A stretch of DNA of 64,000 nucleotides from Tessaracoccus palaemonis (GTDB taxonomy: Bacteria > Actinomycetota > Actinomycetes > Propionibacteriales > Propionibacteriaceae): NCBI RefSeq assembly GCF_019316905.1, contig NZ_CP079216.1, positions 992,001-1,056,000 on the forward strand. The letters are read 5' to 3'. The notes beneath the pieces were generated by a model. That model did not search any database, was not told the DNA's origin, and saw only the letters and a program-made list of their open reading frames with translations. Positions 20,297 to 37,360 of the stretch are shown one piece after another; within the stretch, counting starts at the first letter, position 1, and every line of letters starts with the position of its first letter. A program made the translations under genes and the position numbers.

Positions 20297-21646
20297 TCAG
20301 CTGGCGACGACAGTGTCGAGCAGCTTCAGGGCGTTGTCCCACGAGGTGGGGCCGTCAGCCTTGCCCGAGTCGATCTCCTGGACGCTGGGGCCGAAGACCT
20401 GCTCCTGGATGACCGAGTCATCGGGGCCCTTGTACTGGGCCTTGACGCCCTCGGCGCGCTTGGCGAGGATCTCGCCGATCGGCGCGTCGTTGAAGAACTC
20501 CGTCAGTTCGGAGGGGCCCGTCACGCCGGGGTCCTTCTGCGCCTCGAGGTTGCTGGGGAACGCACCGGCCGCCTGGAAGGCCGAGACCTGCTGCTGCGCG
20601 TCGGTCAGCCAGGCCGCCAGCTCGGCGGCCTCCTTCGGGTGCTCAGAGGTCGTGGGGACCGTCAGGAACGAGCCGCCCCAGTTGGACGCGCCGCCCGGGA
20701 AGACATCGGCGAAGTCCCAGCCGGAGTCGGCGTCGCCGCCGCCCGCCTCGACCTGGCCCTTGACGACGCCCAGCATCCAGCCGGGGCACACGAACGTCGC
20801 GAACGAGCCGTCGACGAAGGCCTTGCCGCCGCCCCAGTCCCACTGGGTCTGGGCGCTGGACAGGCCGTCGGCCGCAGCGTCGGCCAGCATCAGCCAGCGG
20901 GACTTGAGCTCTTCATTGTCCTTGACGTTGAGCGTCCCGTCAGCCTTGTAGTAGCCCTCGTCGAGCTGGTTGACCATGGAGTTCCACACGAAGCCGGACT
21001 GGTCGTACCACGCCTTGCCGGTCTTCTCGTGGTACTGGCGACCGACCTCGAAGAACGTCTCCCAGGATGCGCTGTCGCCGCCGAGCAGCTCGGCGAAGCC
21101 GTCGCGGTCGGAGGCCATGCCGGCCTCCTCGAGCAGCTTCGAGTTGTAGCAGACGCCCTGGGGGCCGATGTCGGTGCCGTAGCCGATGATGCGGCCGTTG
21201 CTGTCGGTGGCCTGGGCGATCTTCCAGTCGACCCAGTTGCCCTTGATGTCGTCGGCGCCGTAGTCGCGCAGGTCGGTGAACGAGTCGGAGACCTGCATGA
21301 CCTTGCTCAGCCAGCCCTCCTCGACCGCCTGCACATCGGGGAGCCCGGAACCGGCGGCCTGCTTGGTCTGCCAGTCGGTCAGCGCGTTGCCGCCGGTGTC
21401 GATGTTGTTGGCCTTGATGGTGATGTTCGGGTGGTCGGCCTCGTACTTCGCGTAGAGGTCGTCGAGCCCCATGGTGCCGAACGTCGTGACGGTCAGCTCG
21501 ATGGGCTCGGTGGACTCGGCGGATGCCGACCCGGTGGCGGCACTCGTGCTGCCGTCGGTGGTCGTGCCGGAGCACGCCGTCGCCAGCAGTGTGATTGAGA
21601 CGGCGCTGGCGAGACCTGCCAGGAGCCGTGAGCGGTGGTTGGACAC
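20297..21646 (-). CDS. Sugar ABC transporter substrate-binding lipoprotein
   Basis: A 449-residue extracellular solute-binding protein of family 1. The start is GTG 21646, with AAGGGAG 5 nt upstream; an ATG further upstream would place the signal peptide about 39 residues inside. The N-terminus is a lipoprotein signal: RSRLL, a hydrophobic core, then the lipobox LATAC with Cys25 as lipid anchor, followed by a Thr/Ser/Glu-rich linker. The mature part has the usual IELTVTTFGTMGLDDLYAKYE start. It leads the operon with two permeases and a LacI regulator. Likely ligand a cello-oligosaccharide or other glucoside, inferred from the CebR-like operators. Confidence 0.93.
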   Translation of the reverse strand: MSNHRSRLLAGLASAVSITLLATACSGTTTDGSTSAATGSASAESTEPIELTVTTFGTMGLDDLYAKYEADHPNITIKANNIDTGGNALTDWQTKQAAGSGLPDVQAVEEGWLSKVMQVSDSFTDLRDYGADDIKGNWVDWKIAQATDSNGRIIGYGTDIGPQGVCYNSKLLEEAGMASDRDGFAELLGGDSASWETFFEVGRQYHEKTGKAWYDQSGFVWNSMVNQLDEGYYKADGTLNVKDNEELKSRWLMLADAAADGLSSAQTQWDWGGGKAFVDGSFATFVCPGWMLGVVKGQVEAGGGDADSGWDFADVFPGGASNWGGSFLTVPTTSEHPKEAAELAAWLTDAQQQVSAFQAAGAFPSNLEAQKDPGVTGPSELTEFFNDAPIGEILAKRAEGVKAQYKGPDDSVIQEQVFGPSVQEIDSGKADGPTSWDNALKLLDTVVAS

Positions 21647-21673
21647 GTTCACTCCCTTGTGTTGGCCGACTTT

Positions 21674-21685
21674 GAGAGCGCTCTC
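21674..21685. promoter_or_regulatory. LacI-type operator O2
   Basis: Perfect 12-bp palindrome GAGAGCGCTCTC in the 5' leader of the binding-protein mRNA, between promoter and start codon. Identical to the copy at 21764-21775, 90 bp away. Its form resembles the CebR consensus TGGGAGCGCTCCCA. Confidence 0.75.
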
Positions 21686-21733
21686 TCTGTCGGCGGTTCC
21701 GGAGGCTTCGTTGCGATTCCCCGGGTTGTGATG

Positions 21734-21763
21734 AACGTAGAGTCGATCGGCGACCCATGTCAA
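21734..21763 (-). promoter_or_regulatory. Promoter of the sugar ABC operon
   Basis: On the minus strand, TTGACA (21763-21758), an 18-nt spacer and TACGTT (21739-21734). The -35 box directly abuts operator O1 and operator O2 lies about 45 nt downstream of the expected start point, a layout suited to repression. Confidence 0.65.
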
Positions 21764-21775
21764 GAGAGCGCTCTC
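21764..21775. promoter_or_regulatory. LacI-type operator O1
   Basis: Second exact copy of GAGAGCGCTCTC, abutting the -35 box of the ABC operon promoter. Confidence 0.75.
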
Positions 21776-21821
21776 ACGCGTTATGAAATCGAGACAATCA
21801 GGGTTGTGTGGGCACGGCGAA

Positions 21822-21846
21822 GGCCCGGGGCGTGAAGCTCCGGGCC
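21822..21846 (-). terminator. Hairpin after the nitroreductase gene
   Basis: GGCCCGGGGC pairs with GCTCCGGGCC (one G-T wobble, 5-nt loop), 18 nt beyond the nitroreductase stop on the minus strand. No U-tract. It would shield the ABC operon promoter from read-through. Confidence 0.6.
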
Positions 21847-21863
21847 CTCGGGGTCGTGGGGTA

Positions 21864-22445
21864 TCAGATGTCGAGGATGAGCGTGAGGTCGTCCAGGTCG
21901 CGACGCGTGCGGGGCTCGAGGTCGCGCTCGCGGACGGCCTCGTCGATGTCGGCGGCCGGGTCGTAGCGCCCGACGGCGATGACGGTGACGGGGGTCAACG
22001 CGGCGTCGATGCGGAAGACGGAGCGCAGCTGGTCGACGTCGAACCCGCCCATCTGGTGGGTGACGAGCCCGCGGTCGGCGGCCTCGATGGTCAGGTGTGC
22101 GACCGCCTGGCCAAGGTCGTACTCGGCCCAGCGGACCGGGCGGCCGTCGCGCTCGGTCTCCGCCAGCGCCACGACGAGGGCCGAGGCGCGCGGCGCCCAC
22201 ACCTGGTTGAACCCGGCGAGGCTCTCGGCGATCTTGGCGAACGTGTCGGTGCCGCGGCGGGCGACGATGAAGCGCGTCGGCTGCAGGTTCATGGCGGACG
22301 GCGCCCAGCGGGCCGCCTCGCCCAGCGCGGTGAGGTCCTCGGCGCTCAGGACGTGGGCGCCGTCGAGCGAGCGAGGGCTCCACCGGTGGGCGAGGGGGCT
22401 GCTGACGGGAACGCTGGTCTCGTTGCGGATGTCCGTGGCGGTCAT
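21864..22445 (-). CDS. Nitroreductase-family protein
   Basis: A 193-residue FMN-dependent oxidoreductase of the nitroreductase fold. RWSPRSLDG near residue 21 is the typical N-terminal FMN-binding Arg-Ser-x-R region, AARWAPSAMNLQPTRFIV is the second FMN segment, and DLGQAVAHLTIEAADRGLVTHQMGGFD is the central helix and FMN contact. AAGGAG precedes ATG 22445. Physiological substrate unknown; such enzymes reduce quinones, nitro compounds or unsaturated substrates with NAD(P)H. Confidence 0.9.
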   Translation of the reverse strand: MTATDIRNETSVPVSSPLAHRWSPRSLDGAHVLSAEDLTALGEAARWAPSAMNLQPTRFIVARRGTDTFAKIAESLAGFNQVWAPRASALVVALAETERDGRPVRWAEYDLGQAVAHLTIEAADRGLVTHQMGGFDVDQLRSVFRIDAALTPVTVIAVGRYDPAADIDEAVRERDLEPRTRRDLDDLTLILDI

Positions 22446-22502
22446 GGTGCTCCTTCGGAAGGTCTCGCCTCCACGGTACTCCGTCGTCAGTTGAATGTTA
22501 AA

Positions 22503-22904
22503 TCAGCTGGGCGTGCCGGCGTCCACGCTCCACGAGACGCCGAACTTGTCGGTCAGGTCGCCGTAGTGGTCGCCCCACATCTGGGGCGCGAAGGGGGTGG
22601 TGACGTCCGCGCCGTCGCTCAGCGCTGTGAACCAGGCCCGCGCCGTCTCGAGGTCGTCGCCCCAGACGCAGATCTGGATGTTGCCGGAGGGGAGCTCCTC
22701 GCCGCTGCGCGGGTCGTCCGAGACCATCAGGGTGAAGGTGTCGGTGGTGAGCTGGCCGTGCATCACCAGGTCTGCGACCGCCGGGTCGGGGTTGTACTCG
22801 GACTGCATCGTGATCGCGAGTTCGCCGCCGAAGACCGACTGGTAGAACATGATGGCCGGCTTCGCCTTGCCTCGGAGGATGATGTAGGGGCTGACTGTCA
22901 GCAT
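22503..22904 (-). CDS. PhnB-like VOC family protein
   Basis: A 133-residue single-domain vicinal-oxygen-chelate protein: TVSPYIILRGKAKPAIMFYQSVFGGEL is the characteristic start, MHGQLTTDTFTLMVSDD the middle, and PFAPQMWGDHYGDLTDKFGVSWSVD the conserved C-terminus of the PhnB/DUF3335-like group. Molecular function in this group is generally unassigned. A monocistronic gene between nitroreductase and the divergent 2H phosphoesterase. Confidence 0.88.
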   Translation of the reverse strand: MLTVSPYIILRGKAKPAIMFYQSVFGGELAITMQSEYNPDPAVADLVMHGQLTTDTFTLMVSDDPRSGEELPSGNIQICVWGDDLETARAWFTALSDGADVTTPFAPQMWGDHYGDLTDKFGVSWSVDAGTPS

Positions 22905-22962
22905 GGTCGTCCTTTCGTCGTGGACCCGACCCTATTGACCAGGGGTGTCATCGGGCTGAGGT

Positions 22963-22968
22963 TAGGGT
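22963..22968 (+). promoter_or_regulatory. -10 box of the thpR-like gene
   Basis: TAGGGT, 7 nt before ATG 22976, giving a leaderless arrangement. Confidence 0.45.
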
Positions 22969-22975
22969 GGACGGC

Positions 22976-23548
22976 ATGGGAGCACGTATGTTCACGGCCC
23001 TGCTGCCGCCCGACGAGGTCGTCGGCGATCTCGACGGCCTGCTGGAGCCGCGCCGCGACTCCGACGAGCGGCTGCGCTGGACCCGGCCCGTCGGCTGGCA
23101 CGTGACCACCTCGTTCATGGGCGACGTCGACCTGTGGCGCGTCGAGAGCCTCGTCGAGCATCTGGCGGTCGCCGCGTCCCACGCGGCTCCCTTCGACGTC
23201 GGTCTCAGCGGGGGAGTCGCGTTCCCCTCACCCGACCGGGCGAAGGTGCTCGCGCTCGCCGTCGGGCCGGGGCACGACCAGCTGGCCGCGCTGTCGGCCG
23301 GGTGCCGACGCGCGGGGTCCAGGGCGGGCATCGAGGTCGACGGGGCCCGCTTCGTCGGCCATCTGACCCTGGCCCGCACCAGTCACGGATTCAACGCGAC
23401 ACGGTGGCTGGAGGTGCTCGGCTCGTTCCCGCGATGGGCGTGGCGGGCCGACGAGCTGTGCCTCATCGAATCGCTGCAGCGGGGTCGCGAGTACGCGGTA
23501 GTCGAGCGGTTCGCGCTCGGCGCCCCCGCGCGCGGTGCCCTAGACTAG
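22976..23548 (+). CDS. thpR: RNA 2',3'-cyclic phosphodiesterase / 2'-5' RNA ligase family
   Basis: A 190-residue two-histidine phosphoesterase. The paired HxT motifs are HVTTSF (about residue 39) and HLTLAR (about residue 124), separated as usual for ThpR, which opens 2',3'-cyclic phosphates on RNA. ATG 22976 is chosen because a TAGGGT box ends 7 nt before it; GTG 22967 and ATG 22988 are possible alternatives. The gene ends just before tRNA-Leu. A second 2H protein is encoded at 40308-40907. Confidence 0.85.
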   Translation: MGARMFTALLPPDEVVGDLDGLLEPRRDSDERLRWTRPVGWHVTTSFMGDVDLWRVESLVEHLAVAASHAAPFDVGLSGGVAFPSPDRAKVLALAVGPGHDQLAALSAGCRRAGSRAGIEVDGARFVGHLTLARTSHGFNATRWLEVLGSFPRWAWRADELCLIESLQRGREYAVVERFALGAPARGALD

Positions 23549-23559
23549 GCGCGCTTCGA

Positions 23560-23641
23560 GCCGACGTGGCGAAATTGGTATACGCGCAGGATTTAGGTTC
23601 CTGTGCCTTCGGGCGTGAGGGTTCAAGTCCCTTCGTCGGCA
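23560..23641 (+). tRNA. tRNA-Leu (anticodon UAG)
   Basis: Acceptor GCCGACG pairs exactly with CGTCGGC; the anticodon arm CAGGA-TTTAGGT-TCCTG gives UAG; a variable arm with a GCCTTCGGGC-like stem and T-arm GAGGG-TTCAAGT-CCCTT follow. CCA is not encoded. The inserted region 23642-26605 begins right after its 3' end. Confidence 0.95.
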
Positions 23642-23753
23642 CTCGTTGAAACCGCGTTGACAAGGTGTGAAGCCGCCACTGAGTGGCTGCCTCCTTGTGC
23701 GTGATCCTCTCGTGCGACACGTCTGCTGCCTGGGCGGACGGTCTCGACTGCGG
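23642..23753. other. Junction between tRNA-Leu and the IS remnant
   Basis: No gene is seen. I looked for a repeat of the tRNA-Leu 3' end further right in the insertion and did not find one by eye. Confidence 0.4.
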
Positions 23754-24700
23754 TTAGCGGTGGATCGCAGCCCTAGTCGGGCCGCTGGTGTGTCTGCTTG
23801 CAGTCAAGACATCATCTACAAGCGCCTCGAGTATGCGGCGCAGGTCGTAACGGTATTCGACGTCTGCCAGGCGGTCGTGACGGTCGCACGCGCCCAGTCG
23901 GGGTGCCCCCTTCACTGGCTCTTCGGACATCCGGTGGGGGTCTGGGGTGAGCCCACCGGCGGCGAGGAGCATGCGGAGCCGGTAGTTGTGCCGGTTGCGG
24001 AATCCTCTCGTGAGGCGTCGGTGGAGCTCGATGATCCCGTTCACGGCCTCGGTGCCGCCGTTGTTCGCGGGCCCGGTGATGAAGTAAGCCAGAAATGCTG
24101 AGCGTCAGCGGCGCAGGGTGCGGATGAGGCGGGCGATCTCGGGGATCGGGCAGGTGTGGAACGTGTCGACGACCTTCTCCGCGATTCGCCGCCCCTCGGC
24201 GAGGTCCTTCTGGTGGAGGCGGAGCGCGGCTGCTGGGCGCACTGCCATGCGATGAACACCTCGTCGTGCGCGGGATCGGCCTCGATCCCCGCAGTCAGCC
24301 GGATCCGCTGCTTGTCGGTGAGGTTCTCCCATCCGGCGCGGAGGATGGTCTGGATCCCGTAAAGCGGTCGCGGGTCCGGCCGCGATGTCCGAGGGTGTCC
24401 TGCTGGACGCGGCGGCGGACCTCGTCGATGGCGGCGGTGCCGAGTTTCACGACGTGGAGCGCGTCCAGCACCGCGGTGGCATCCCCGAGTTTGTCGTCGA
24501 TCGCGGTCTTGTACCCGGCGAACGGATCCAACGCGGCGCCGCACGTTCTTGCGGAAGCTGTCGCCGCGTTCATCGAGCCAGGTCGCGTAGGCCTTCCCGG
24601 ATCGGCCAGGCACCAGATCCAGCAGCCTGGCCCGCGTCTTCCCGGTGCTATCGCGACTTAGGTCGACCATCCCGGTCAGCTCCTTCGGGCCCCGCTTGCG
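23754..24700 (-). pseudogene. Decayed ISL3-family transposase
   Basis: Minus-strand remnant of a DDE transposase of the ISL3 family, split over at least four reading-frame changes. In order: MVDLSRDSTGKTRARLL (about 24670-24620), DPFAGYKTAIDD followed by DALHVVKLG (about 24537-24445, catalytic Asp region), WENLTDKQRIRLT and FIAWQCAQ (about 24330-24240), DLAEGRRIAEKVVDTFH (about 24215-24150), then GPANNGGTEAVNG and RGFRNRHNYRLRMLLAAGG (about 24085-23970). The N-terminal zinc-binding part is missing beyond 24700, where the DUF262 gene begins. No terminal inverted repeats were recognised. Inactive. Confidence 0.82.
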
Positions 24701-24741
24701 GGGGTCGACTTGATGCTAGATGTGCGCGGGGTGTTGTCTGG

Positions 24742-24747
24742 CATAAT
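24742..24747 (+). promoter_or_regulatory. -10 box of the DUF262 gene
   Basis: CATAAT in an AT-rich stretch just beyond the IS remnant, 35 nt before the TTG start; no clear -35 box. Confidence 0.4.
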
Positions 24748-24781
24748 ACTTTGTAAGTCTACCGCGGCTAGGAGCAGAACT

Positions 24782-26605
24782 TTGTCGTCAGTTACCTCAG
24801 ATGCTATCCCGATCAAATCGACCACGCGAACAATCCGGGAGTGCTTTGTCTCTTGTCTGTATGTCGTTCCAAACTTCCAACGTCCCTACAGTTGGGATAT
24901 TGACGAGTTGGATGACTACTGGGCCGACGTGGTTCTGGCGCGGGGAGACTTCTTCTTTGGGTCTACCGTGACGTGGGAGAGTGAGTCCCGGGAGTTGTTC
25001 AATAACACTTATTCGATCATCGATGGTCAGCAACGCTTGACAACAAGTGCGATCATGCTGTCGGTCATTCGAGATGCATTTCTTGCTGCTGTTGAAAGTG
25101 AAGATGGTATTGGTTCGGGAGACTTGCGTTCTCAGGCGAGAGCGCAGGCTGAGCGAACGCAAAAGTATCTCATGATTGAGGATGACCGCGGGGTCCAACA
25201 CCCAGTCCTCACCCGTCATGAACCGAATTTTCAGGAGGTGGTTCTGAACCCCAGTGCGATCCCTTCGCACAAGAGATGGAATGGTAGTGCGCGACAGATT
25301 GGTGTTGCGCGTGAGTACTTTGAGCGCCGGGTGCAGGAGGCGGTCGATAGTAACTCGTTAGCTGAGGTCATCAAGACGCTTCAGGGACTTCGGGATAATG
25401 TACTAAAGGCGCGACTTATTCAAGTGGAACTGACCTCTGAGGAAGACGGGTTCCTTATCTTTGAGACGCTCAATACGCGAGGGGCTGATCTTCGGCTGGC
25501 TGACCTTGTTAAGAACCTGCTTGTGCGAGGTAGTGCCACGAAAGTGGAGGACAGGGAGACCGTCTCAAGACGGTGGGAGCAACTGACTGATCGAGTGCAG
25601 GGTGAAGATGGGTCGACTGTGAATGTCGATCAGTTCATGTGGCAGTCGTGGAACTCGCGCCGCCCAGCGGTAACTGAGGCTGAACTCTACAAGAAGATCC
25701 ATGAGTTCGTCGATGGATCAGCGCAGCGGCACCTTGAGTACCTCGGAGAGTTGGAGTTTGACTCGATTGTCTACCAGTACCTCGATGATGTTGGCCTCGT
25801 CATTGACAAACAGGCGCTGGATCCAAAGAGCGCCTTGCGCATTCCCGAAGTTGTTGAAGCAATTCGTGCGTTGGCCCTCTTTAATGTCTCCGTGGCCAAC
25901 TCGGCCATCCTTGCAGTGGTCCGGAAGTATGAGAAGAGTGGCTTGATGCGAAAGCAGGACGTTATTGCAGCGTGCCGCGCTATCGAGAGCTTTCACTTTC
26001 AGTTTACGGCGCTGACGAACAGTGGGTCCACTGGGGGTACTCGGGGACGCTACAACAGATTCGCAGTCGAGCTTGAGGAGGCCTCGTCTCGCCAAGCGGT
26101 GCAGGGTGCCATCAAGTCGTTCCAGGAGAAGCTTGAGGGAAGTCTCCCGTCGCCTGAGGAAGCCCGAGCGTCGTTTGAGCAGTTGTTCTACGCGCCTAAG
26201 GTTCGACTGAACAACGCTCAGAAGCGCCGCTCGCGTAAGCAATTTCTCTCCTATGTCCTGCTGCGTCTCGCCCAGCATCATAAGACGTTGCCATTGGGGC
26301 AAGACTTGAGTGTGTGGACCATTGAGCATATCCGCCCTCAGAAGCTCGCTTCTGCTGAAGTAGAAAGTCCGGAGTACTCAATCGGAAATCTAGCATTGTT
26401 GACTGATGCTGCGAACAATGATCTGGGTGATGGTGATCTCGCCGCAAAGCGAGCTGGCCTAAATCGGTTCGTTCTTTGGAAGGATGATCAGCTATCGAAA
26501 TGGATTGACGACAATGAAAAGAGTGAGGTCCAGGTGAGGGATATCGCACTTAGGGCGAAGTTGCTAGCGGTGCTTGCTGTCGATGCTGTTTGGTCGATCA
26601 GATAG
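24782..26605 (+). CDS. DUF262/DUF1524 protein, GmrSD-like candidate defence nuclease
   Basis: A 607-residue protein from TTG 24782, chosen because AGGAG (24770-24774) lies 7 nt upstream and a -10 box sits at 24742; an ATG at 24710 would reach into the IS junction. The N-terminal DUF262 domain has VVPNFQRPYSWDIDEL (residues 28-43) and the DGQQR motif (81-85), a ParB/Srx-like nucleotide-binding site. FETLNTRGADLRLADLVKN follows, and the C-terminus has a DUF1524 HNH-like nuclease motif EHIRPQ (His516) with GNLALL downstream. This resembles single-chain GmrSD type IV modification-dependent restriction enzymes. G+C is near 50% in the stretch I counted, far below flanking genes, showing recent transfer. 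No partner gene is present. Confidence 0.85.
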   Translation: MSSVTSDAIPIKSTTRTIRECFVSCLYVVPNFQRPYSWDIDELDDYWADVVLARGDFFFGSTVTWESESRELFNNTYSIIDGQQRLTTSAIMLSVIRDAFLAAVESEDGIGSGDLRSQARAQAERTQKYLMIEDDRGVQHPVLTRHEPNFQEVVLNPSAIPSHKRWNGSARQIGVAREYFERRVQEAVDSNSLAEVIKTLQGLRDNVLKARLIQVELTSEEDGFLIFETLNTRGADLRLADLVKNLLVRGSATKVEDRETVSRRWEQLTDRVQGEDGSTVNVDQFMWQSWNSRRPAVTEAELYKKIHEFVDGSAQRHLEYLGELEFDSIVYQYLDDVGLVIDKQALDPKSALRIPEVVEAIRALALFNVSVANSAILAVVRKYEKSGLMRKQDVIAACRAIESFHFQFTALTNSGSTGGTRGRYNRFAVELEEASSRQAVQGAIKSFQEKLEGSLPSPEEARASFEQLFYAPKVRLNNAQKRRSRKQFLSYVLLRLAQHHKTLPLGQDLSVWTIEHIRPQKLASAEVESPEYSIGNLALLTDAANNDLGDGDLAAKRAGLNRFVLWKDDQLSKWIDDNEKSEVQVRDIALRAKLLAVLAVDAVWSIR

Positions 26606-26702
26606 CCGGTGCCCTTGCCAAGCCGTTGTCTTCATGAAGCGCGGCGCTAACGCTGGCAGGTCTCGTCTGAGCTGCGTGCCCCGCTCAGGCGCAGAAGGCC
26701 AA

Positions 26703-27266
26703 CTAATCCTGATGGGCCGACAGTCGCACGTGCATGCGTGCGCCCTCGTCGTTGAAGATGCTGATCACCTGCGCCGGCCTGTTCCCGGCCGCCGACGCCG
26801 CGTGCGGGATGCGCGTGTCGTACTCCGCCGCCTCGCCGCGGGTGAGGATGAGGTCCTGGTCGCCGAGGCGCAGGCGGAGCCGTCCCGACAGCACGTAGAT
26901 CCACTCGGAGCCCTCGTGCGTGCGGAGTTCCGGCAGTTCCCCGTCGGGTGGGAAGGTGATCTTGTAGGTGTGGACGGCCGACGACTCCGGGGACAACGGC
27001 ACGATGAGCACGCCGTCGCGGCGGATAACGGGTCGTCGGACGCGGGGGTCGGGGGTGTCCTGGGCGATGAGGTCGTCGACCTTGATGCCGAGCTGTCGGG
27101 TGATGGGGATCAGCAACTCGAGGCTGGCCTGGCGTTTCCCTGATTCGAGCCTCGAGAGCGTGCTCGCCGAGACCCCCGACCTGTCCGCCAGGTCGTCCAG
27201 GGTCCAGCCCCGCGACTTCCGCACGGAGCGTAGCCGTGTGCCGACGTGTGCGAGTTCCTCCAGCAT
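26703..27266 (-). CDS. XRE-type HTH regulator with cupin domain
   Basis: The 187-residue product has an N-terminal Cro/C1 HTH (about residues 6-62: RLRSVRKSRGWTLDDLADRSGVSASTLSRLESGKR region) and a C-terminal cupin barrel (about 110-180) with THEGSEWIYVLSGRLRLRLGDQDL and IPHAA. ATG 27266 is supported by AAGGAG 7 nt upstream; a longer frame from 27305 would overlap a palindrome. Family members sense small metabolites through the cupin and often control an adjacent amino-acid or transporter gene. Divergent from a 49-residue ORF. Confidence 0.9.
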   Translation of the reverse strand: MLEELAHVGTRLRSVRKSRGWTLDDLADRSGVSASTLSRLESGKRQASLELLIPITRQLGIKVDDLIAQDTPDPRVRRPVIRRDGVLIVPLSPESSAVHTYKITFPPDGELPELRTHEGSEWIYVLSGRLRLRLGDQDLILTRGEAAEYDTRIPHAASAAGNRPAQVISIFNDEGARMHVRLSAHQD

Positions 27267-27290
27267 CGTGGATCTCCTTCCGTCGCCGTC

Positions 27291-27337
27291 TTGCCGGTTC
27301 GGCAAGTTTCTTTGCGATTCTACTCCGCTCGGCGGAG
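27291..27337. promoter_or_regulatory. Two palindromes in the XRE-cupin divergent spacer
   Basis: TTGCCG-GTT-CGGCAA (27291-27305) and CTCCGC-TCG-GCGGAG (27323-27337) lie in the 80-nt spacer between the regulator and the divergent small ORF. The first is a plausible binding site for the regulator, hence autoregulation; this is inference. Confidence 0.45.
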
Positions 27338-27346
27338 CATGGAGAC

Positions 27347-27496
27347 ATGAGTGCAGTGAACACGGAGAAGACGACGGAAGCCCCAGCCCCCGCGGATGAG
27401 GAGTGGTTCACCGCGGAGGCCGAGGCTGCGAACTGCAGGCGCCTGTTCGGTGACCGCGCGTACGGTCTCGACGGCGGCTTCGTGGTGGGTCGCTGA
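27347..27496 (+). CDS. Small hypothetical protein (49 aa)
   Basis: Starts MSAVNTEKTTEAPAP and ends DRAYGLDGGFVVGR. GGAG elements lie just upstream of ATG 27347. It is acidic, without membrane segment, and I do not recognise a family. The divergent position relative to the XRE-cupin regulator and shared palindromes suggest it may be the regulated gene. The end touches the convergent yigZ-like gene. Confidence 0.45.
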   Translation: MSAVNTEKTTEAPAPADEEWFTAEAEAANCRRLFGDRAYGLDGGFVVGR

Positions 27497-27497
27497 C

Positions 27498-28151
27498 TCA
27501 GCCGACCCAGCGGGAGCCGGTCTCCTCGGCGGTCAGGGCCCCCGCGGACAGCGTGGCCAGCGCGACGCGCAGCTCGTCGACGGATCCGGCGGGCACGGCC
27601 ACACTGATGTGCGCGCGGTCCGTCCAGTCGACCGAGTCGACGGTGACGGGAGCCCCGGAGGGCAGCGTCAGGCCGCGCAGCTGGTCCTCGACCTGACCCG
27701 CGGAGGCGAAGTCTGCGTCGATCCGCAGCAGCGTGGACAGGTGGACCGTTCGGGTGCCCGCCGCCTCGACGGCCTGCGCGACGGCGTCCGTGTACGCCCG
27801 CACCAGGCCGCCCGCGCCAAGCTTGATGCCGCCGAAGTAGCGCGTGACGACCGCGACGACGTCCGTCAGCCCGACCCGGTTCAGGGCCGTCAGCATCGGC
27901 ACACCGGCGGTGCCGGCGGGCTCGCCGTCGTCCGAACTGTGGGCCGTGCGCCCGTCCGGGCCCAGCACGAAGGCGGAGCAGTGGTGGCGGGCGTCGAAGT
28001 AGGTGGACCGCCGCCCTTCGATGACGGCGCGCGCGTCCTCCTCGGAGATGACGCGCCGCATATGCGTCAGGAACCGGGACCGCCTGATCTCCAGCTCGAC
28101 GTCCACCCCGCCTCCCGGGGCGGCATCGATGGTGAGGTAGGAGTCAGACAC
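27498..28151 (-). CDS. YigZ/IMPACT-family protein
   Basis: A 217-residue protein of the IMPACT family: EIRRSRFLTHMRRV, the signature DARHHCSAFVLG, SSDDGEPAGTAGVPML, and VTRYFGGIKLGAGGLVRAY are all present in the N-terminal UPF0029 domain, with a ferredoxin-like C-terminal domain (DUF1949-type). Its role in bacteria is not settled; links to translation regulation and a peptidase-like fold have been proposed for relatives. Its start overlaps the bcp stop by 8 nt, so the two are coupled. Confidence 0.9.
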   Translation of the reverse strand: MSDSYLTIDAAPGGGVDVELEIRRSRFLTHMRRVISEEDARAVIEGRRSTYFDARHHCSAFVLGPDGRTAHSSDDGEPAGTAGVPMLTALNRVGLTDVVAVVTRYFGGIKLGAGGLVRAYTDAVAQAVEAAGTRTVHLSTLLRIDADFASAGQVEDQLRGLTLPSGAPVTVDSVDWTDRAHISVAVPAGSVDELRVALATLSAGALTAEETGSRWVG

Positions 28152-28623
28152 CGAGCTCGCGGCGGAGCTTGGCCACGTGGCCGGTGGCCTTCACGTTGTA
28201 CTGCGCCACCTTGACGACGCCCTTGCCGTCGGCGTCGACCTCGATCACGAACGTCGAGCGCAGCACGCCGACGATCTCCTTGCCGTACAGCTTGCGGGGG
28301 CCCCAGGCGCCGTAGGCGTTCAGTACGGTCGTCTCGGGGTCGGCCAGCAGCGTGAAGCCGAGGTTGGAGCGTTCGGCGAACTTCGCCAGCTTGTCCACGG
28401 GGTCGGGGGAGCACCCGAGCACGCGGTAGCCGGCATCCGTGAAGGAGCCGAGGCTCTCGGAGAAGTCGACGGCCTGCGTCGTGCAGCCAGGCGTCATCGC
28501 GGCCGGGTAGAAGTAGAGGATGACCGTCTCGCCGGCGAAATCGGAGAGGGAGACGTCGTTGCCGTCCTGGTCGGGCAGCGTGAACTCGGGGGCCGGGGTG
28601 CCGGCCGTCAGTCGTGCGGTCAT
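28144..28623 (-). CDS. bcp: Peroxiredoxin, Bcp/PrxQ type
   Basis: A 159-residue thiol peroxidase reducing H2O2 and organic peroxides. PAPEFTLPDQDGNDVSLSDF and the active-site YFYPAAMTPGCTTQAVDF with the peroxidatic Cys are clear. The usual resolving Cys five residues on (CxxxxC) is Val here, so it works as a 1-Cys or atypical enzyme with another thiol (GCSPD is a candidate). TACACT at 28631-28636 (minus strand) lies 7 nt before ATG 28623. Confidence 0.93.
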   Translation of the reverse strand: MTARLTAGTPAPEFTLPDQDGNDVSLSDFAGETVILYFYPAAMTPGCTTQAVDFSESLGSFTDAGYRVLGCSPDPVDKLAKFAERSNLGFTLLADPETTVLNAYGAWGPRKLYGKEIVGVLRSTFVIEVDADGKGVVKVAQYNVKATGHVAKLRRELGV

Positions 28624-28630
28624 GGCGGCA

Positions 28631-28636
28631 AGTGTA
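28631..28636 (-). promoter_or_regulatory. -10 box of bcp
   Basis: TACACT on the minus strand, 7 nt before the ATG; leaderless arrangement. Confidence 0.45.
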
Positions 28637-28691
28637 TCGACTCGCGGCGGGGTCGTCGGCACGTTTGGTGGCGCTGCGGCTGGCCCGTGAC

Positions 28692-28719
28692 TATAGGCTG
28701 GGGGCAGACCCTCAAGGAG
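28692..28719 (+). promoter_or_regulatory. -10 box and RBS of the DUF3618 gene
   Basis: TATAGG (28692-28697) followed by AAGGAG (28714-28719), 7 nt before ATG 28727. One of the leadered transcripts in the window. Confidence 0.5.
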
Positions 28720-28726
28720 TACGCAC

Positions 28727-29053
28727 ATGGCCAATCCGAACGTGCAGCAGCTGCGCGCCGACCTCGCCGCCAATCGGGCCCGCCTCGTCGGCGCGACCAA
28801 CGAGGTGGCGGAGGCCATCAAGCCGCAGAACATCGCCAGGGAATCAGTGGCCCAGGTCAAGCAGTTCGCCAAGGCCGAGTTCGACACGGCCACCTCCTCG
28901 CTGCGCGACGAGCGGGGGCAGTGGAACTACGAGAAGCTGCTGGTCGTGGGGGGCGCCGTGGTCGGCGCTGTCGTGTTCTTCGCGACGCTCAACTCCGTCG
29001 CGAAGCGCCGCGCCGTCTCCGTTGCGGCCCGCAGGGCGGCGATCGAGAGGTGA
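28727..29053 (+). CDS. DUF3618 membrane-associated protein
   Basis: A 108-residue actinobacterial protein. The N-terminus has the DUF3618 pattern (QQLRADLAANRARLVGATNEVAEAIKP), a long amphipathic helix, then one hydrophobic segment around residues 72-88 (VVGGAVVGAVVFFATL) and a basic C-terminal tail (AKRRAVSVAARRAAIER). Probably a single-pass inner-membrane protein with a cytosolic coiled N-terminus. Function unknown; its stop overlaps the GTG of the GroES-like gene by 4 nt. Confidence 0.8.
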   Translation: MANPNVQQLRADLAANRARLVGATNEVAEAIKPQNIARESVAQVKQFAKAEFDTATSSLRDERGQWNYEKLLVVGGAVVGAVVFFATLNSVAKRRAVSVAARRAAIER

Positions 29054-29373
29054 TCGACGCACCCCTGGCCATCCGCATGCTGAATGACCGGGTGTTGGTC
29101 GACCCCGACACGGGGGCCGCGGAGCGACGCTCCGGAGGCGGCATCCTCATCCCCGCCACGGTGCAGATGGGTCGCAAGCTCACCTGGGCCAAGGTCGTCG
29201 CCGTCGGACCCAACGTCCGGTCCGTCGAGGTCGACGACCGCGTCCTGTTCGACCCGGAGGAGCGCGCGGAGGTCGAGCTCCAGTCCCGCACCTACGTCCT
29301 GCTCCGCGAGCGGGACATGCACGCCGTCGCCTCCGAGGGTGCCGTCGACGGCGGGACCGGGCTGTACCTCTAG
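29050..29373 (+). CDS. GroES/Cpn10-like protein
   Basis: A 107-residue protein with the Cpn10 beta-barrel pattern: IRMLNDRVLVDPD, a mobile-loop-like AERRSGGGILIPATVQMGRK, AKVVAVGPNVRSVEVDDRVLF and YVLLRERDMHAVA. Longer than the typical start would allow if ATG 29077 were used, so GTG 29050, coupled to the DUF3618 stop, is preferred. No groEL lies nearby, so it is probably an accessory paralogue, not the main GroES. Confidence 0.82.
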   Translation: MIDAPLAIRMLNDRVLVDPDTGAAERRSGGGILIPATVQMGRKLTWAKVVAVGPNVRSVEVDDRVLFDPEERAEVELQSRTYVLLRERDMHAVASEGAVDGGTGLYL

Positions 29374-29377
29374 CCGC

Positions 29378-30136
29378 TCAGATGCCGATGCCGTCGAGGA
29401 AGTCGCCGACGGCCTCGGCGATGGCGGCCTCCGCGTCGGCGCGCGACACCGTCGGGACGCCGTCGCCGGACTGGGGCCCGTAGCGGCCGAAGAAGCTGTG
29501 CACCGATCCCGTCACCTCGACGAAGCTGGCCGACGACGGCAGGGAGTCAGCCGCCCCGAGCACGGTGTCGAGGTCGGCGACCTCGTCGTGCTCCCCGTAG
29601 AGCGAGAGGACTGGCAGCGTCGTCGAGCTGAGGTCGTCGTCGGGCGGATAGGCGGCCAGCAGCACCAGCCCCGCGAGTGCCTCGGGGTTCTCCGCCGCGT
29701 ACGAGGCGGCCATGGCTCCGCCGAGCGAGTGCCCACCGATCACGACGGGCAGGTCGCCCGCCAGCTCGTCGGAGACCTGCGTCGCGCGGTCCTTGCCGAG
29801 CACCGCGAGGTCGAACGGCATCTCCGGGATGAGCGTCCGCACGCCGCGCGAGGCCAGCGCGTGGCCGAGCCACTCGTAGGCCTGCGGGCGTACCAGCCCG
29901 CCGGGGTAGAGGATCAGCGCGACACGCGCCTCCACGTCGGCGGGCTCGATCACCAGCACCTTCCCGCAGGCGTCGACCATCGACACCGACACCTCCGCCT
30001 CGTCGGCGGCGACCACCACGGCGTCCTGCCCGACCATCAGCGGCTCGCGGTTGAGGATGGGCCACGCCCAGCCGATGCCGAACCCGATCAACGCGCCGAC
30101 GATCAGCAGGGACACCACTTTCAGGAAGCGCTTCAT
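29378..30136 (-). CDS. Membrane-anchored alpha/beta hydrolase
   Basis: The 252-residue product starts MKRFLKVVSLLIVGALIGFGIGWAW, an uncleaved signal anchor placing the domain outside the membrane. The hydrolase part has the nucleophile elbow GGHSLGG (Ser), an acidic residue in LYGEHDEVAD and a terminal VHSFFG His, a complete Ser-Asp-His set resembling dienelactone/chlorophyllase-like alpha/beta hydrolases. ATG 30136 is the start that opens the hydrophobic anchor. Substrate unknown. Confidence 0.85.
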   Translation of the reverse strand: MKRFLKVVSLLIVGALIGFGIGWAWPILNREPLMVGQDAVVVAADEAEVSVSMVDACGKVLVIEPADVEARVALILYPGGLVRPQAYEWLGHALASRGVRTLIPEMPFDLAVLGKDRATQVSDELAGDLPVVIGGHSLGGAMAASYAAENPEALAGLVLLAAYPPDDDLSSTTLPVLSLYGEHDEVADLDTVLGAADSLPSSASFVEVTGSVHSFFGRYGPQSGDGVPTVSRADAEAAIAEAVGDFLDGIGI

Positions 30137-30204
30137 GGGCGGAAGTATGCCGCGTCTCCGGCCCCGACCGCCCCACACCGGGTTCCGGAAAGTAGGGTCC
30201 AGGG

Positions 30205-30396
30205 ATGGATCGTTGTCCGGGATGTGGGTCGTGGTTGCACCAGGGCGAGGCGTGCTTCGAGTGTGAGGTGGTCGCCGCGCAGCGCTGCGTGTGCCCCAAC
30301 GCCGACGACGACTGCTGGGGCCGCTGCGAGAACGCCGCCGGATGCGTGTCGATCTTCATGGGTGCCACGACGTCGACCCACTCGGCAGCCGTGTGA
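30205..30396 (+). CDS. Small cysteine-rich protein, possible zinc ribbon (63 aa)
   Basis: Starts MDRCPGCGSWLHQGEACFECE and contains CPGCG, CFEC, CVCPN, CWGRC and one further Cys, enough for two zinc sites. The frame sits between divergent/convergent well-supported genes with no overlap. No family recognised beyond the zinc-ribbon look; no strong ribosome binding site. Could be a real small metal protein. Confidence 0.45.
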   Translation: MDRCPGCGSWLHQGEACFECEVVAAQRCVCPNADDDCWGRCENAAGCVSIFMGATTSTHSAAV

Positions 30397-30405
30397 CCTG
30401 CCCGG

Positions 30406-30478
30406 CGCCCCAGACAGGACTCGAACCTGTAACCGACGGATTAGAAGGCCGTTGCGCTATCCATTGCGCCACTGGGGC
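30406..30478 (-). tRNA. tRNA-Arg (anticodon UCU)
   Basis: Read on the minus strand: acceptor GCCCCAG pairs with CTGGGGC, D-arm GCGCAATGGATAGCGC, anticodon loop CTTCTAA giving UCU, T-arm with GGTTCGAGTCC. 73 nt, CCA not encoded. It faces away from orn. Confidence 0.94.
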
Positions 30479-30526
30479 TGGCGCGGCTCAGTCTAGCCTC
30501 AGTCGCGCGGCTGCCCCGCGCGGACG

Positions 30527-30532
30527 TATCTT
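30527..30532 (+). promoter_or_regulatory. -10 box of orn
   Basis: TATCTT, 6 nt before ATG 30539; leaderless arrangement. Confidence 0.45.
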
Positions 30533-30538
30533 GTAGCC

Positions 30539-31177
30539 ATGAGTGAAAAGCTGGTGTGGATCGACTGCGAGATGACCGGGCTGGATCTGGTCAACGACGC
30601 GTTGATCGAGGTCGCGGTGCTCGTGACCGACGGTGAACTGAACCTGCTCGGCGACGGCGTCGATGTTCTGATCAGGCCGACCGACGAGGCCCTCGAGCAG
30701 ATGGGCGACTTCGTCCGCACCATGCACACCAAGTCCGGCCTCCTCGAGGACCTCAAGGACGGCGTCACCATGGAGGAGGCCACCGCCCAGGTGATGGCCT
30801 ACATCAAGACCTTCGTGCCCGCCCCGAAGCGGGCCCCGCTGGCCGGCAACACCATCGGCACCGACCGCACCTTCCTCGCCCGCGACATGCCCGAGCTGGA
30901 GGAGTGGATGCACTACCGCAACGTCGACGTGTCCTCCATCAAGGAGCTCGCCCGCCGCTGGTATCCGAAGGTCACGCACCTCGCCCCGGCCAAGACCGGC
31001 AACCACCGCGCGCTGGCCGACATCCAGGAGTCGATCGAGGAGCTGCGCTACTACCGCGAGGCGCTGTTCGTGCCGGAGCCCGGCCCCACGGGCGACGAGC
31101 TGCGCGCCATCGCCGCGAAGCACCGCGGGGCACTGACCGGGAACACGGGCGAGGCGGAGGTCGCGAAGGAGGCCTGA
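30539..31177 (+). CDS. orn: Oligoribonuclease
   Basis: A 212-residue DEDD-family 3'-5' exoribonuclease that degrades 2-5 nt RNA fragments and, in many bacteria, pGpG. VWIDCEMTGLD supplies the first Asp-Glu pair, PLAGNTIGTDRTFLARDMP the central Asp region, and GNHRALADIQESI the His-Asp of the DEDDh set. The tail after residue 185 is Ala/Gly/Glu-rich. Just downstream lies tRNA-His. Confidence 0.96.
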   Translation: MSEKLVWIDCEMTGLDLVNDALIEVAVLVTDGELNLLGDGVDVLIRPTDEALEQMGDFVRTMHTKSGLLEDLKDGVTMEEATAQVMAYIKTFVPAPKRAPLAGNTIGTDRTFLARDMPELEEWMHYRNVDVSSIKELARRWYPKVTHLAPAKTGNHRALADIQESIEELRYYREALFVPEPGPTGDELRAIAAKHRGALTGNTGEAEVAKEA

Positions 31178-31250
31178 CCGCCCCTCGATTTCCCAGCCCC
31201 CGCCAGGGTGCGCTATTGTTTCCCAGTCGCCTGACGCTGTCGGGCAGCAT

Positions 31251-31324
31251 GGTGGGTATAGCTCAGGTGGTAGAGCACCTGGTTGTGGTCCAGGATGTCG
31301 CGGGTTCAAATCCCGTTACTCACC
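31251..31324 (+). tRNA. tRNA-His (anticodon GUG)
   Basis: GTGGGTA (31252-31258) pairs with TACTCAC (31317-31323, one wobble), with G-1 at 31251 opposite C73 at 31324 as expected for tRNA-His. Anticodon arm CCTGG-TTGTGGT-CCAGG gives GUG. The defence-type island starts at its 3' end, and the stop codon of the recombinase remnant lies within the acceptor stem. Confidence 0.95.
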
Positions 31325-31565
31325 CTGATGTGGCGAGGTTCAAACCCTTGACCGGAGGAACCGCTCCGGTTCTGGTCTGAACCTCGTCACTTTTCTGTGT
31401 CTCGGCAGCCCAGTTCAGGGCATTCGCCTGAACCTCAGGATCGCACAGCGCGTCGTAGGGCCGCTGGTAGGTGACGCGAGGGTCGCCGTCGTCATCGACA
31501 TAGATCGCGGTGAAGAACGCCTGGTTGCAGAGCCGGCGGTTCGCATCGTCGCAGCGTCGGTAAGG
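31320..31565 (-). pseudogene. Serine-recombinase C-terminal remnant
   Basis: The frame reads DDANRRLCNQAFFTAIYVDDDGDPRVTYQRPYDALCDPEVQANALNWAAE and runs to a TGA at 31322-31320, inside the tRNA-His acceptor stem. This closely resembles the C-terminus of large serine recombinases/integrases. Upstream of about 31565 the frame loses any family character and soon meets the Argonaute 3' end, so the catalytic domain is gone. It marks the left edge of the island. Confidence 0.65.
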
Positions 31566-31782: not shown

Positions 31783-33231
31783 TCACATGTAGTAGGCGTA
31801 ACTGCCCTGCGGGGTGCTATTACCGCCGAGGTGACGCAGAATGTCGCCGACGCGGTTCGCGGTGCGTAGAGTGATTGGGTCGGCACCATCAAGGTTGGTG
31901 GCGTTCCAGTTCATCTTCGTCAGGGCGAGGATCTCAGAGGCCAGGGTCTCCGGGCTCGACTCGGTGGAGTGGAGCCGAATCCCGATCGGCTTGGGGATGT
32001 AGGGGCCATTGTAGACCTTGTAAAACGGCGTGGAGCCCTTGGTGTAGAGGACATGCCGTTTGTCGTCGAGGGAGAGCAGGCTGCCCCGGAGCGGCGGCTG
32101 CTCGCCGCGCCGGAAGAGTCGAGCGCTGTCCGAGCGAGTGATCCACACCAGTTCGAGGGCCGGGATATCGTGCTCGTCGGCGGCGCCATAGAATCCGGCC
32201 GCCTCCTGCGGGGTGAACGAGGACGTCTTGTGCAGGACCAACCGTGCGGGATTCTGGCTGTGTTCGATCCGGTAGCGCTTCAATGCCTCACTGAGTAGTT
32301 CATGGGCATCTTCCTCGGACAGGTGCGGCTGTTTGTCCTCGTGCGAGACCTGAGCGGGTGCCCCGCGGACGATCACGCCATCGCCGAGTTGGTTGAAGAT
32401 CTGGGCCACGCTGGTCTCCAATCGGTTCTGGTCACTGCCGCGGTAGAAGGAGACGCCGACGTAGCAACTTGCCTTGCTGCCCGAGGATCGGGGCAGACGC
32501 CACGGCACGCCTCCGGCCTTGTAGTAGAGCGCCGTGTGCAGATTCCACGCCCTGGTGGCCTCGTCCTGCTTGGCTCGAACCTGGGATTGCTTCGGTTCTC
32601 TGAAGCCGGGATCCCAAGTTGAACGGCGAATGATCTGGGTGGGCTGTCGGAAGCGGAGCGCAGCAGCCTTAAGCAGCGAGTGGAAGTCACCCTGCCCGAC
32701 CGGCAGCGGACCCGATGGTTCGCCATTTGCGCCGTCAGCGGTGGGGCGACGTGACGGAAGGGATCCGGTGTCAATGAGATTGTCCGGGCGACAGACCAGG
32801 ACCACGTCGCAGGTGCGTTCCTCATCAAGGACTACGAGTTCGCGTACGTAGAGGTCCACAGCTTTCCTGGTCGCGGTCAGTGGGTTGGTACCGTCGAGCG
32901 CGTCCAGATCGCGCTTACGGATCGCACGCTCAAATCGCGGGTTGGTCTCGATGACCGAGTGAAAGGTGCGTTCGGCGCTGAAGCCGGGAAAGGGCAGGTA
33001 GAGGGCGCCGAGCGGGCTCTGCTTCGCGGCGATCTCGCTGCGGCACTTGTCGAGCCATCGCCTGGTCCCATCGATGGACTCTTGGGTGCCGACGATGCCG
33101 ATCCTGATCACCGCGACGGGCGAATCGAGCAGGTCGGCGGGTCCGAAGAAGTCGATGCCGTGACGCGGGTCGGTGTGCCGGCCGCCGTAGGCGAACTCCA
33201 GGACCGGCTCGTCGAGAACGGTTACCTTCAT
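31783..33231 (-). CDS. Short prokaryotic Argonaute (MID-PIWI, catalytically inactive)
   Basis: A 482-residue protein with the size and order of a short pAgo: MID-like region about 120-245, PIWI domain about 250-482 (CYVGVSFYRG 256-265, ARLVLHKTSSFTPQEAAGF 329-347, LVWI, KPIGIRLHS, SEILALTKMNWN, terminal SYAYYM). No N or PAZ domain. The PIWI tetrad is lost: the first-Asp position reads VGVSF, and the site of the usual RDG reads HKTSS. It is therefore a guide-binding sensor, not a slicer. Its ATG overlaps the stop of the DUF4365-APAZ gene by 4 nt, so the two products form the short-pAgo/APAZ heterodimer. Confidence 0.88.
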   Translation of the reverse strand: MKVTVLDEPVLEFAYGGRHTDPRHGIDFFGPADLLDSPVAVIRIGIVGTQESIDGTRRWLDKCRSEIAAKQSPLGALYLPFPGFSAERTFHSVIETNPRFERAIRKRDLDALDGTNPLTATRKAVDLYVRELVVLDEERTCDVVLVCRPDNLIDTGSLPSRRPTADGANGEPSGPLPVGQGDFHSLLKAAALRFRQPTQIIRRSTWDPGFREPKQSQVRAKQDEATRAWNLHTALYYKAGGVPWRLPRSSGSKASCYVGVSFYRGSDQNRLETSVAQIFNQLGDGVIVRGAPAQVSHEDKQPHLSEEDAHELLSEALKRYRIEHSQNPARLVLHKTSSFTPQEAAGFYGAADEHDIPALELVWITRSDSARLFRRGEQPPLRGSLLSLDDKRHVLYTKGSTPFYKVYNGPYIPKPIGIRLHSTESSPETLASEILALTKMNWNATNLDGADPITLRTANRVGDILRHLGGNSTPQGSYAYYM

Positions 33232-34571
33232 CCCTCGTCCTCTCCGAAGTCGAACGGCAACTGGTCAGCATCGTTCTCGCCACCGGTCGGGGTCTTCCAG
33301 GCCTTGTCGTTGATGCCGCGGTCGACGGCAAAGGTGACCAGATCATCGAAGGTCAGGAGTCGGTCCTGGGTGGCGCCAAGCAGGTTCTCCTCGTCCTCTG
33401 CCCGGTCGCCGCGAAGAAGTCCAGCCCAGAGTTCGGTCTCTCCCAGGACGGCGCGGTGGCGGTCGATGCGCTTCATCTTCGCCAACCGCTCGTCGGCGAA
33501 GGGCGACTCCTTGTAGCCGTCGCTGGTGAAGAAGTAGTCGGGGTTGAGTTCGCAGAACCATGCGCCACCGATCTCAATGAACTGCCACCGCAGCCCCGCG
33601 TGCCGGTAGTAGCCCTTCAGGGTCGGGGTGTCCTTGCGCTGGGAGTAGCCCTTGAACGCCAGCCGCTTGCGGCCGCTGGCACTGCGTACCTGCCGTTCAG
33701 AGAGGTCTTCCGTGGCCTTGTAGTAGAGCAGTTTGCGATCCCCGCTCCAGCGGGTCACGTCTCGCAGGTCGTGCTGCAGGCCTGCGTTCAGCAGCCGCAC
33801 AAACAGGTGCTGGGCATCGGGTCCGCCGTCGATGAGTTCACCCACCGGCGTCTGGTTGGCAGCAGTATCGGCGACTCGTGCCAGTGCGGTCCCGGCGATC
33901 GGCGCCCAGGTGTAGATTCGCCCGTGGCTGAGGAAGAAGTCAGAACGAACCTCATGCTTGGTCCTGCGCTGCTCTGCGTAGACGTCGCGGACCCTGAGTC
34001 CGGTGGGAACCTGGGCGGTGTAGTAGACGGGAGGGAACTCAACGGGCAGCAAGTTGCTGACCAGAGTCTCCTTCTTTTCTACAGGCCCAGGGGTGTGCGC
34101 CTTTGCGTGCGGGTCGGCTATGGCGAACAGGGCCTCAACCGCACTGGCGTCGAACTTCTGGGTCGCCTTGTCGATGTCGATCCGCCGCGACGCGCGGCGG
34201 GCCGGTTCGGCGAACCAGGATTGCACGTGAGCCCACCAAGCCTCCTCCGTGTCCGGGTGAGAGCACACGACGATGACCGGACTACTCGCCTTGAGCCAAT
34301 AGTCGAGGTCGCGTGGGTCGCAAGTGAAGTGGAACTTCTCTTGCGTCTCGCCGGCGAACCGGGCGTAAGCCTTGGACTGGACGAAGATGTGCTGGTCGGT
34401 CATCTCGCCGGTGGACGGGTCGCGGAGTTCGATCGTGCCGTCGATGCCGGGGTCGATGTGACGCTCGTGCCAGACCTGCTTCATCTGACCGGCACGTAGA
34501 GCAATCAGTCCGATGCCAGTCGCGCCGTTGAGCGTGCTGTCGTCGATCATCTTGCCTTTAGTCTGAGTCAC
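33228..34571 (-). CDS. DUF4365-APAZ effector nuclease of a SPARDA-type system
   Basis: A 447-residue protein from GTG 34571, chosen because AGGAGG sits 5 nt upstream; an ATG at 34646 has no such signal. Residues about 12-160 look like DUF4365, a PD-(D/E)XK nuclease: NGATGIGLIALRAG, then ID-PGIDGTIEL (Asp44, Glu48) and IFVQSKAYARF (Gln65-x-Lys67). The rest (about 180-447) matches the expected position of an APAZ domain that binds the Argonaute; this part is assigned mainly by gene partnership. In characterised SPARDA systems guide-directed target DNA recognition unleashes DNA/RNA cleavage and abortive infection. Translationally coupled to the pAgo. Confidence 0.83.
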   Translation of the reverse strand: MTQTKGKMIDDSTLNGATGIGLIALRAGQMKQVWHERHIDPGIDGTIELRDPSTGEMTDQHIFVQSKAYARFAGETQEKFHFTCDPRDLDYWLKASSPVIVVCSHPDTEEAWWAHVQSWFAEPARRASRRIDIDKATQKFDASAVEALFAIADPHAKAHTPGPVEKKETLVSNLLPVEFPPVYYTAQVPTGLRVRDVYAEQRRTKHEVRSDFFLSHGRIYTWAPIAGTALARVADTAANQTPVGELIDGGPDAQHLFVRLLNAGLQHDLRDVTRWSGDRKLLYYKATEDLSERQVRSASGRKRLAFKGYSQRKDTPTLKGYYRHAGLRWQFIEIGGAWFCELNPDYFFTSDGYKESPFADERLAKMKRIDRHRAVLGETELWAGLLRGDRAEDEENLLGATQDRLLTFDDLVTFAVDRGINDKAWKTPTGGENDADQLPFDFGEDEG

Positions 34572-34604
34572 TTGCCCCTCCTGCCAGCACCCCAACCTTG
34601 GAGC

Positions 34605-34653
34605 ACTATCTTGCCCGTTACCACCGACAGTCCGGCGAGATGACACGTCATCT
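34605..34653 (-). promoter_or_regulatory. Possible promoter and operator of the Argonaute operon
   Basis: GATAGT (minus strand, 34610-34605) could be a -10 box 34 nt before the GTG. Upstream lies a palindrome with arms AGATGAC / GTCATCT around 2 nt (34638-34653). No regulator gene is obvious nearby. Confidence 0.3.
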
Positions 34654-37325: not shown

Positions 37326-37360
37326 ACCCGGCGGCCACGCTCGGGACGGAAGAGGCAAGA

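Follow-up and report, generated by a model that had tools for sequence, protein, structure and literature searches.

An intact GmrSD-family gene of low G+C content in a variable tRNA-Leu/yigZ interval of Tessaracoccus palaemonis

Introduction

Between tRNA-Leu and yigZ on the single 3.2 Mb contig of Tessaracoccus palaemonis lies a gene for a 607-aa protein with DUF262 and DUF1524 domains, much poorer in G+C than its surroundings. It raises the questions whether this is a working defence nuclease, which state of DNA it would respond to and whether it was gained recently, as an earlier note on this DNA had proposed when it read the gene as an intact, recently acquired, stand-alone GmrSD-like (type IV restriction) gene. 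We analysed it in a window of 64,000 nucleotides (bases 992001-1056000 of the contig), to which all positions below refer.

In BrxU, SspE, DndI and TgvB, a DUF262 domain is described as sensing DNA chemistry, with NTP at its DGQQR motif, and as controlling a DUF1524 His-Me nuclease (PMC11411939, PMC10952713, PMC11662687). The same sources describe responses of opposite sign, as GmrSD and BrxU cut modified DNA and nicking by SspE is activated by phosphorothioate (PT) marks. DndI is reported to nick DNA independently of modification and to be released from PT-marked self DNA, with Tyr25 as the PT-sensing residue, and it is harmful in PT-deficient cells (PMC11662687). The motifs given for GmrSD are QR, (I/V)DGQQR and FxxxN in the N-terminal DUF262 domain and (E/D)H(I/L/V)xPQ, NLxLL and N in the C-terminal DUF1524 domain (PMC4619093). 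According to PMC11411939, which cites another work on this point, HEC-06 proteins function on their own.

Results

Gene and neighbourhood

The interval begins behind tRNA-Leu (TAG), placed by ARAGORN at 23560-23642 on the plus strand, and ends at a YigZ/UPF0029 gene on the minus strand (27498-28151), the left and right anchors of a variable region. As the earlier note had described, the tRNA is followed by a multiply frameshifted ISL3-family transposase wreck on the minus strand (approximate limits 23700-24730) and then by the intact DUF262/DUF1524 gene on the plus strand (24782-26605, TTG start, TAG stop). Two of four separately searched fragments of the wreck matched DDE_Tnp_ISL3 (5.5e-10 and 3.7e-7) in different minus-strand frames, and the other two had no match. 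An XRE-family regulator with a cupin domain (26703-27305, minus strand) also lies inside the interval and has a near-normal G+C content of 68.5%; in two relatives (L046 and L047) a reading frame assigned by eye to an oxidoreductase is found near this regulator. A 49-codon ORF (27348-27496) adjoining the regulator is a candidate stub, the last third of which (from 27440) is conserved in the sister genome G021, and it showed no sequence match to the L046 and L047 loci.

The TTG start stands seven bases behind an AGGAG ribosome-binding site (24770-24774, plus strand), again in agreement with the earlier reading. An alternative in-frame TTG upstream of 24782 would lead to a 631-aa product. In the two closest relatives (L002 and L003) the earliest start codon that follows a stop corresponds exactly to 24782, and the third (L004) has an ATG two codons and a GTG six codons upstream of the equivalent position. 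The gene had also been credited with its own AT-rich -10 box: a CATAAT is present at 24742-24747 (plus strand), a possible and weak box for which no -35 was found, but a sigma-70 scan of the plus strand from 24600 to 26800 gave no promoter-like site. Together with the wrecked ISL3 neighbour and the short candidate stub beside the XRE-cupin gene, this missing promoter-like site would suit a gene that is decaying and carried along without function in an interval of junk. An uninterrupted frame of 607 codons and the retention of all catalytic motifs argue against it, and we regard such decay as unlikely.

Family assignment and predicted fold

Pfam placed GmrSD_N (DUF262) at residues 27-247 (24860-25522, plus strand; 1.9e-28) and GmrSD_C (DUF1524, His-Me/HNH) at residues 476-579 (26207-26518, plus strand; 1.1e-9), both over the curated cut-offs, and the PADLOC model HEC-06 was matched over its full length (1.3e-63; protein residues 10-605 on model positions 6-556 of 558), in support of the proposed GmrSD-like family. 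A PADLOC model named 'Orf5' scored almost equally (2.7e-63), so that the HEC-06 call is not unique; weaker matches were obtained with the PADLOC models SspE (8.5e-15) and mREase_IV (2.7e-10), and the NCBIfam search gave no match. The published GmrSD motifs are all present on the plus strand as QR, IIDGQQRLTT (DGQQR NTPase motif at residues 81-85, 25022-25036), FETLN (residues 227-231, 25460-25474), the nuclease motif EHIRPQ (residues 515-520, 26324-26341), and GNLALL with N536 followed by N545 (26384-26416). All rows of a 40-row alignment keep Q33-R34, D81, G82, Q83, Q84, R85, F227, N231, H516 and N536. E515 and N545 are each kept in 39 rows, with a D in place of E515 in one row and a gap at N545 in one. 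With 607 uninterrupted codons, with FxxxN, GNLxLL and the last N kept, with a nuclease domain present and neither DGQQR nor EHxxPQ disrupted, the claim that the gene is still intact stands, and judged from its sequence it is an intact, ordinary member of the GmrSD family. Its stand-alone organisation agrees with the finding that it is the single match in its own genome (E 0.001). Residue 32 is Phe (PNFQR) where DndI and SspE have the PT-sensing Tyr (Tyr25 in DndI), and the P-x-Y-Q-R feature is absent; Phe is the common residue at this position (28/40 rows).

An AlphaFold model built from the 40-row alignment had a mean pLDDT of 86.8 and a pTM of 0.70; an earlier model from only four sequences (mean pLDDT 56.6) was left unused. 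Fold comparison led to DndI (9jfl) as the best match, with Z 24.9 and an rmsd of 8.3 over 532 aligned residues. SspE followed with Z 19.0-21.2 (rmsd 18.5), a C-terminal-domain entry (7dri) reaching Z 22.1, and BrxU (7p9k) with Z 13.8 (419 residues aligned, rmsd 14.8). The full-length entries of BrxU, SspE and DndI were aligned over 412-564 residues, and the first entry of another kind appeared at Z 7.9. The large rmsd values indicate a different placement of the domains, and the match is thus one of architecture, at which level the protein is predicted to have the two-domain fold of BrxU, SspE and DndI. A sequence profile searched against solved structures likewise gave DndI as best match (6.1e-68). 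Behind it ranked two entries for a DUF262 protein of 818 aa and SspE; BrxU was absent among the six sequences matched at E 0.001.

Presence and absence within the genus

In the close sister genome G021, blastn blocks at 21550-23670 (95.7% identity) and 27440-31551 (94.7%) flank the stretch 23671-27439, in place of which G021 has another, much shorter sequence; tRNA-Leu and YigZ are 3,855 bp apart here, as against about 334 bp in G021 between the tRNA and the point where the YigZ match ends. The 38 other genomes of the genus, some of which are incomplete, gave no ortholog, and five of them showed weak partial matches, the best with 30% identity over residues 12-265. The stretch next to tRNA-Leu could be obtained from 35 of the 38 (G047 not included; G014 and G023 as fragments only), and none of the 35 stretches matched the 607-aa gene. 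YigZ lies within the stretch in 24 of the 35 and is absent from it in 11, and among these 24 the interval corresponding to window positions 23643-27497 is as short as about 5 bp and as long as 14.4 kb. These lengths were counted from where the tRNA ends to where the YigZ match ends, and they are accurate only to within a few bases, partial tRNA matches having been extended by hand at several loci. Absence across the genus favours a gain here over a loss in the sister, within what is a comparison of two genomes, and the gene was probably gained recently in this lineage.

Three routes of arrival were considered and rejected. Integration by duplication of the tRNA 3' end would leave a repeat, and the window holds no second copy of the tRNA-Leu 3' end at up to three mismatches and no att-like repeat. 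The ISL3 element as a recent vehicle was discarded, since the wreck is broken up and shares 72-73% identity with seven further sites in this genome. A close phage or plasmid relative as donor did not appear in a viral-contig scan with the single protein, and the plasmid and phage matches described below all have less than 60% identity. As a separate observation, G041 carries a 25-nt copy of the tRNA 3' end (96% identical) about 4.6 kb downstream of its tRNA, likely an attachment-site scar.

Relatives and their settings

A scan of genome contigs led to three relatives. One of them (L002, 75% identity) follows a type I hsdM-hsdS-hsdR set, with which it shares the strand, at a distance of 145 bp. 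L003 has an AAA_15/AAA_21 ATPase and a gene with a NERD domain as neighbours, and L004, from Streptomyces, is surrounded by ordinary genes that include a GntR regulator and an acetyltransferase; no adjacent type I gene was seen in the window, L003 or L004 by ORF lists and a partial Pfam scan. In an evenly drawn sample of 394 genomes from the class, only five besides our own matched at 1e-20, with 25-30% identity; Leucobacter and Streptomyces are among the relatives in the class. A relative was matched in 156 plasmid records and in 11 phage records, always below 60% identity, and none of the phage matches covers 80% of the query. In four plasmid records that were inspected (25-30% identity), for which the gene table is incomplete, no other DUF262 gene was annotated within 4 kb of the relative in any of the four, and an annotated transposase lay within 4 kb in three, as the next gene in two. 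Such varied settings fit a self-sufficient module that moves between them.

G+C content of the gene and of its relatives

The low G+C content that had been noticed by partial counting was borne out: G+C is 53.3% in the gene and 69.2% in the window, whose five gene-length stretches poorest in G+C (step 100) all fall at this locus. GC3 is 0.59 against 0.90-0.97, and a codon-adaptation-like index 0.23 against 0.62-0.82, in nine flanking genes chosen and labelled by eye. This had been taken as a sign of recent acquisition, a reading that, argued in this way, is not supported by comparison with the relatives. In all 39 that were measured, which are mutually related and do not represent 39 independent events, the gene is poorer in G+C than its own flanks, with a median difference of 14.6 points and a range of 0.7-23.6, the smallest values (under 4.5 points) belonging to L152, L174, L150 and L143. 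The sample consists mostly of viral-contig loci, namely 36 of these and L002-L004: of 219 viral relatives found, 80 were fetched and 38 picked by hand, mostly with a match spanning most of the query, and L183 and L191 were removed by a length filter. Others that also span most of the query were left out, for example L151, L154-L156, L163, L167, L176, L185 and L196. The three closest copies have 52-53% G+C in flanks of 60-71%. In each of the six pairs formed by the four closest genes, synonymous sites have reached saturation (pS 0.76-0.83), so that dN/dS could not be computed, and saturation at an unchanged G+C content indicates that the low value has persisted through a full turnover of synonymous sites. 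Therefore, low G+C is normal for GmrSD-family genes and, taken alone, gives no date for the gain. Of the proposed recent acquisition, the part that stands is carried by presence and absence against G021 and by the lack of an ortholog in the genus, and not by the G+C content on its own.

Modification enzymes in the host genome

A search for C5-cytosine methyltransferases (PF00145) gave no match in the own genome, compared to matches in 10 of 14 control genomes, and an enzyme attacking modified cytosine would accordingly not endanger this host. DndC was not matched in the complete genome either, by a loose test that matched 5 of 14 controls and never above the cut-off, which argues, weakly, against a PT partner. 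DUF4007, which we take to be SspB, was not matched in any control genome. A PT-dependent partner of the SspE or DndI kind, with its PT-writing system elsewhere in the genome, would agree with SspE and DndI as the nearest folds and with the PADLOC SspE match (8.5e-15); in view of the missing DndC match, loose as its control is, we consider it very unlikely.

N6_Mtase domains, on the other hand, occur at five places above the cut-off in the genome. They could provide a mark other than PT, such as type I N6-adenine methylation, for an enzyme with the logic of DndI, which would attack foreign DNA lacking the host mark and be released from marked self DNA. The position of L002 directly behind a type I restriction operon and the rank of DndI as best match by both sequence and fold point in the same direction. 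However, the PT-sensing Tyr25 of DndI is replaced by Phe32, as in most rows of the alignment, and the window, L003 and L004 show no adjacent type I gene in the lists and partial scan mentioned above, and such a logic appears unlikely to us.

Other genes noticed in the window

On the minus strand, 31783-34646 encodes a short prokaryotic Argonaute (PADLOC pAgo_I, 4.1e-167) and an upstream DUF4365 protein (1.8e-25). The pair resembles a SPARDA (DNase-associated short Argonaute) operon, has a GC3 of about 0.79-0.80 and lies between tRNA-His and tRNA-Lys. Also between these two tRNAs, a DUF7380/DUF4209 protein and then a 409-aa ORF (58% G+C, no Pfam match at E 0.1) are encoded at 35478-38921 on the plus strand.

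Discussion

Each known system of this architecture shares features with the 607-aa protein and departs from it. HEC-06, a GmrSD-like gene embedded in Hma clusters, gives the full-length match, and single-gene action is described for it (PMC11411939), but around our gene no Hma helicase, methylase and ATPase set was recognised when the neighbouring ORFs were inspected by eye. DndI from Salmonella is alike in length (about 600 aa), in combining DUF262 with DUF1524 and in the fold of the full chain; here, in contrast, its PT-sensing Tyr corresponds to Phe32, no dnd operon surrounds the gene and the genome has no DndC match. The type IV enzymes BrxU and GmrSD have the same two domains and the published motifs, although BrxU is matched more weakly than DndI and the PADLOC mREase_IV model reaches just 2.7e-10. 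SspE has the two-domain fold in common, but is a PT-dependent protein of 771 aa, as opposed to 607 aa and no PT writer found here. TgvB of the TgvAB system of V. cholerae VPI-2 also has both domains, whereas TgvAB needs two proteins (PMC11411939) and a second DUF262 partner is missing from our genome, where one match was obtained at E 0.001.

From the literature on BrxU, GmrSD, SspE, DndI and TgvAB, we infer that the protein would act as an NTPase-gated nuclease. The N-terminal DUF262 domain would bind and hydrolyse NTP at DGQQR and read the chemical state of DNA, a helical linker would pass the signal to the C-terminal DUF1524 domain, and the His-Me finger of the latter (EH-N-N) would nick or cut DNA. 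In the host it would most likely work alone, as a modification-dependent (type IV) enzyme that attacks phage DNA carrying modified bases, and restriction of modified cytosine, as the presumed substrate, is plausible. We prefer type IV action with moderate confidence because the host has neither a C5 methyltransferase match nor, by the loose test above, a DndC match, and an unmarked DndI-like nuclease would be expected to harm the cell. Counting against type IV action, DndI, the closest solved relative, nicks without modification, and BrxU, the solved type IV enzyme, is a weaker fold match than DndI or SspE.

Arrival was probably by horizontal transfer into the variable interval between tRNA-Leu and yigZ; gain is the probable direction of change at this interval, and expression of the gene is presumed. 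A combined explanation, in which the whole clade follows the inverse, DndI-like logic on a type I N6-adenine or other mark and owes its 52-53% G+C to permanent life in the mobile pool instead of a late arrival, seems quite unlikely to us. Taken as a whole, we consider it probable that the gene encodes a stand-alone, HEC-06-like type IV anti-phage nuclease that was horizontally transferred into the tRNA-Leu/yigZ interval.

The locus adds to the GmrSD family an intact single-gene enzyme from a G+C-rich actinobacterium with a close sister genome that is without it. For readers of genomes it also holds a caution, as a low relative G+C content is the rule in DUF262/DUF1524 genes and is no clock of transfer.
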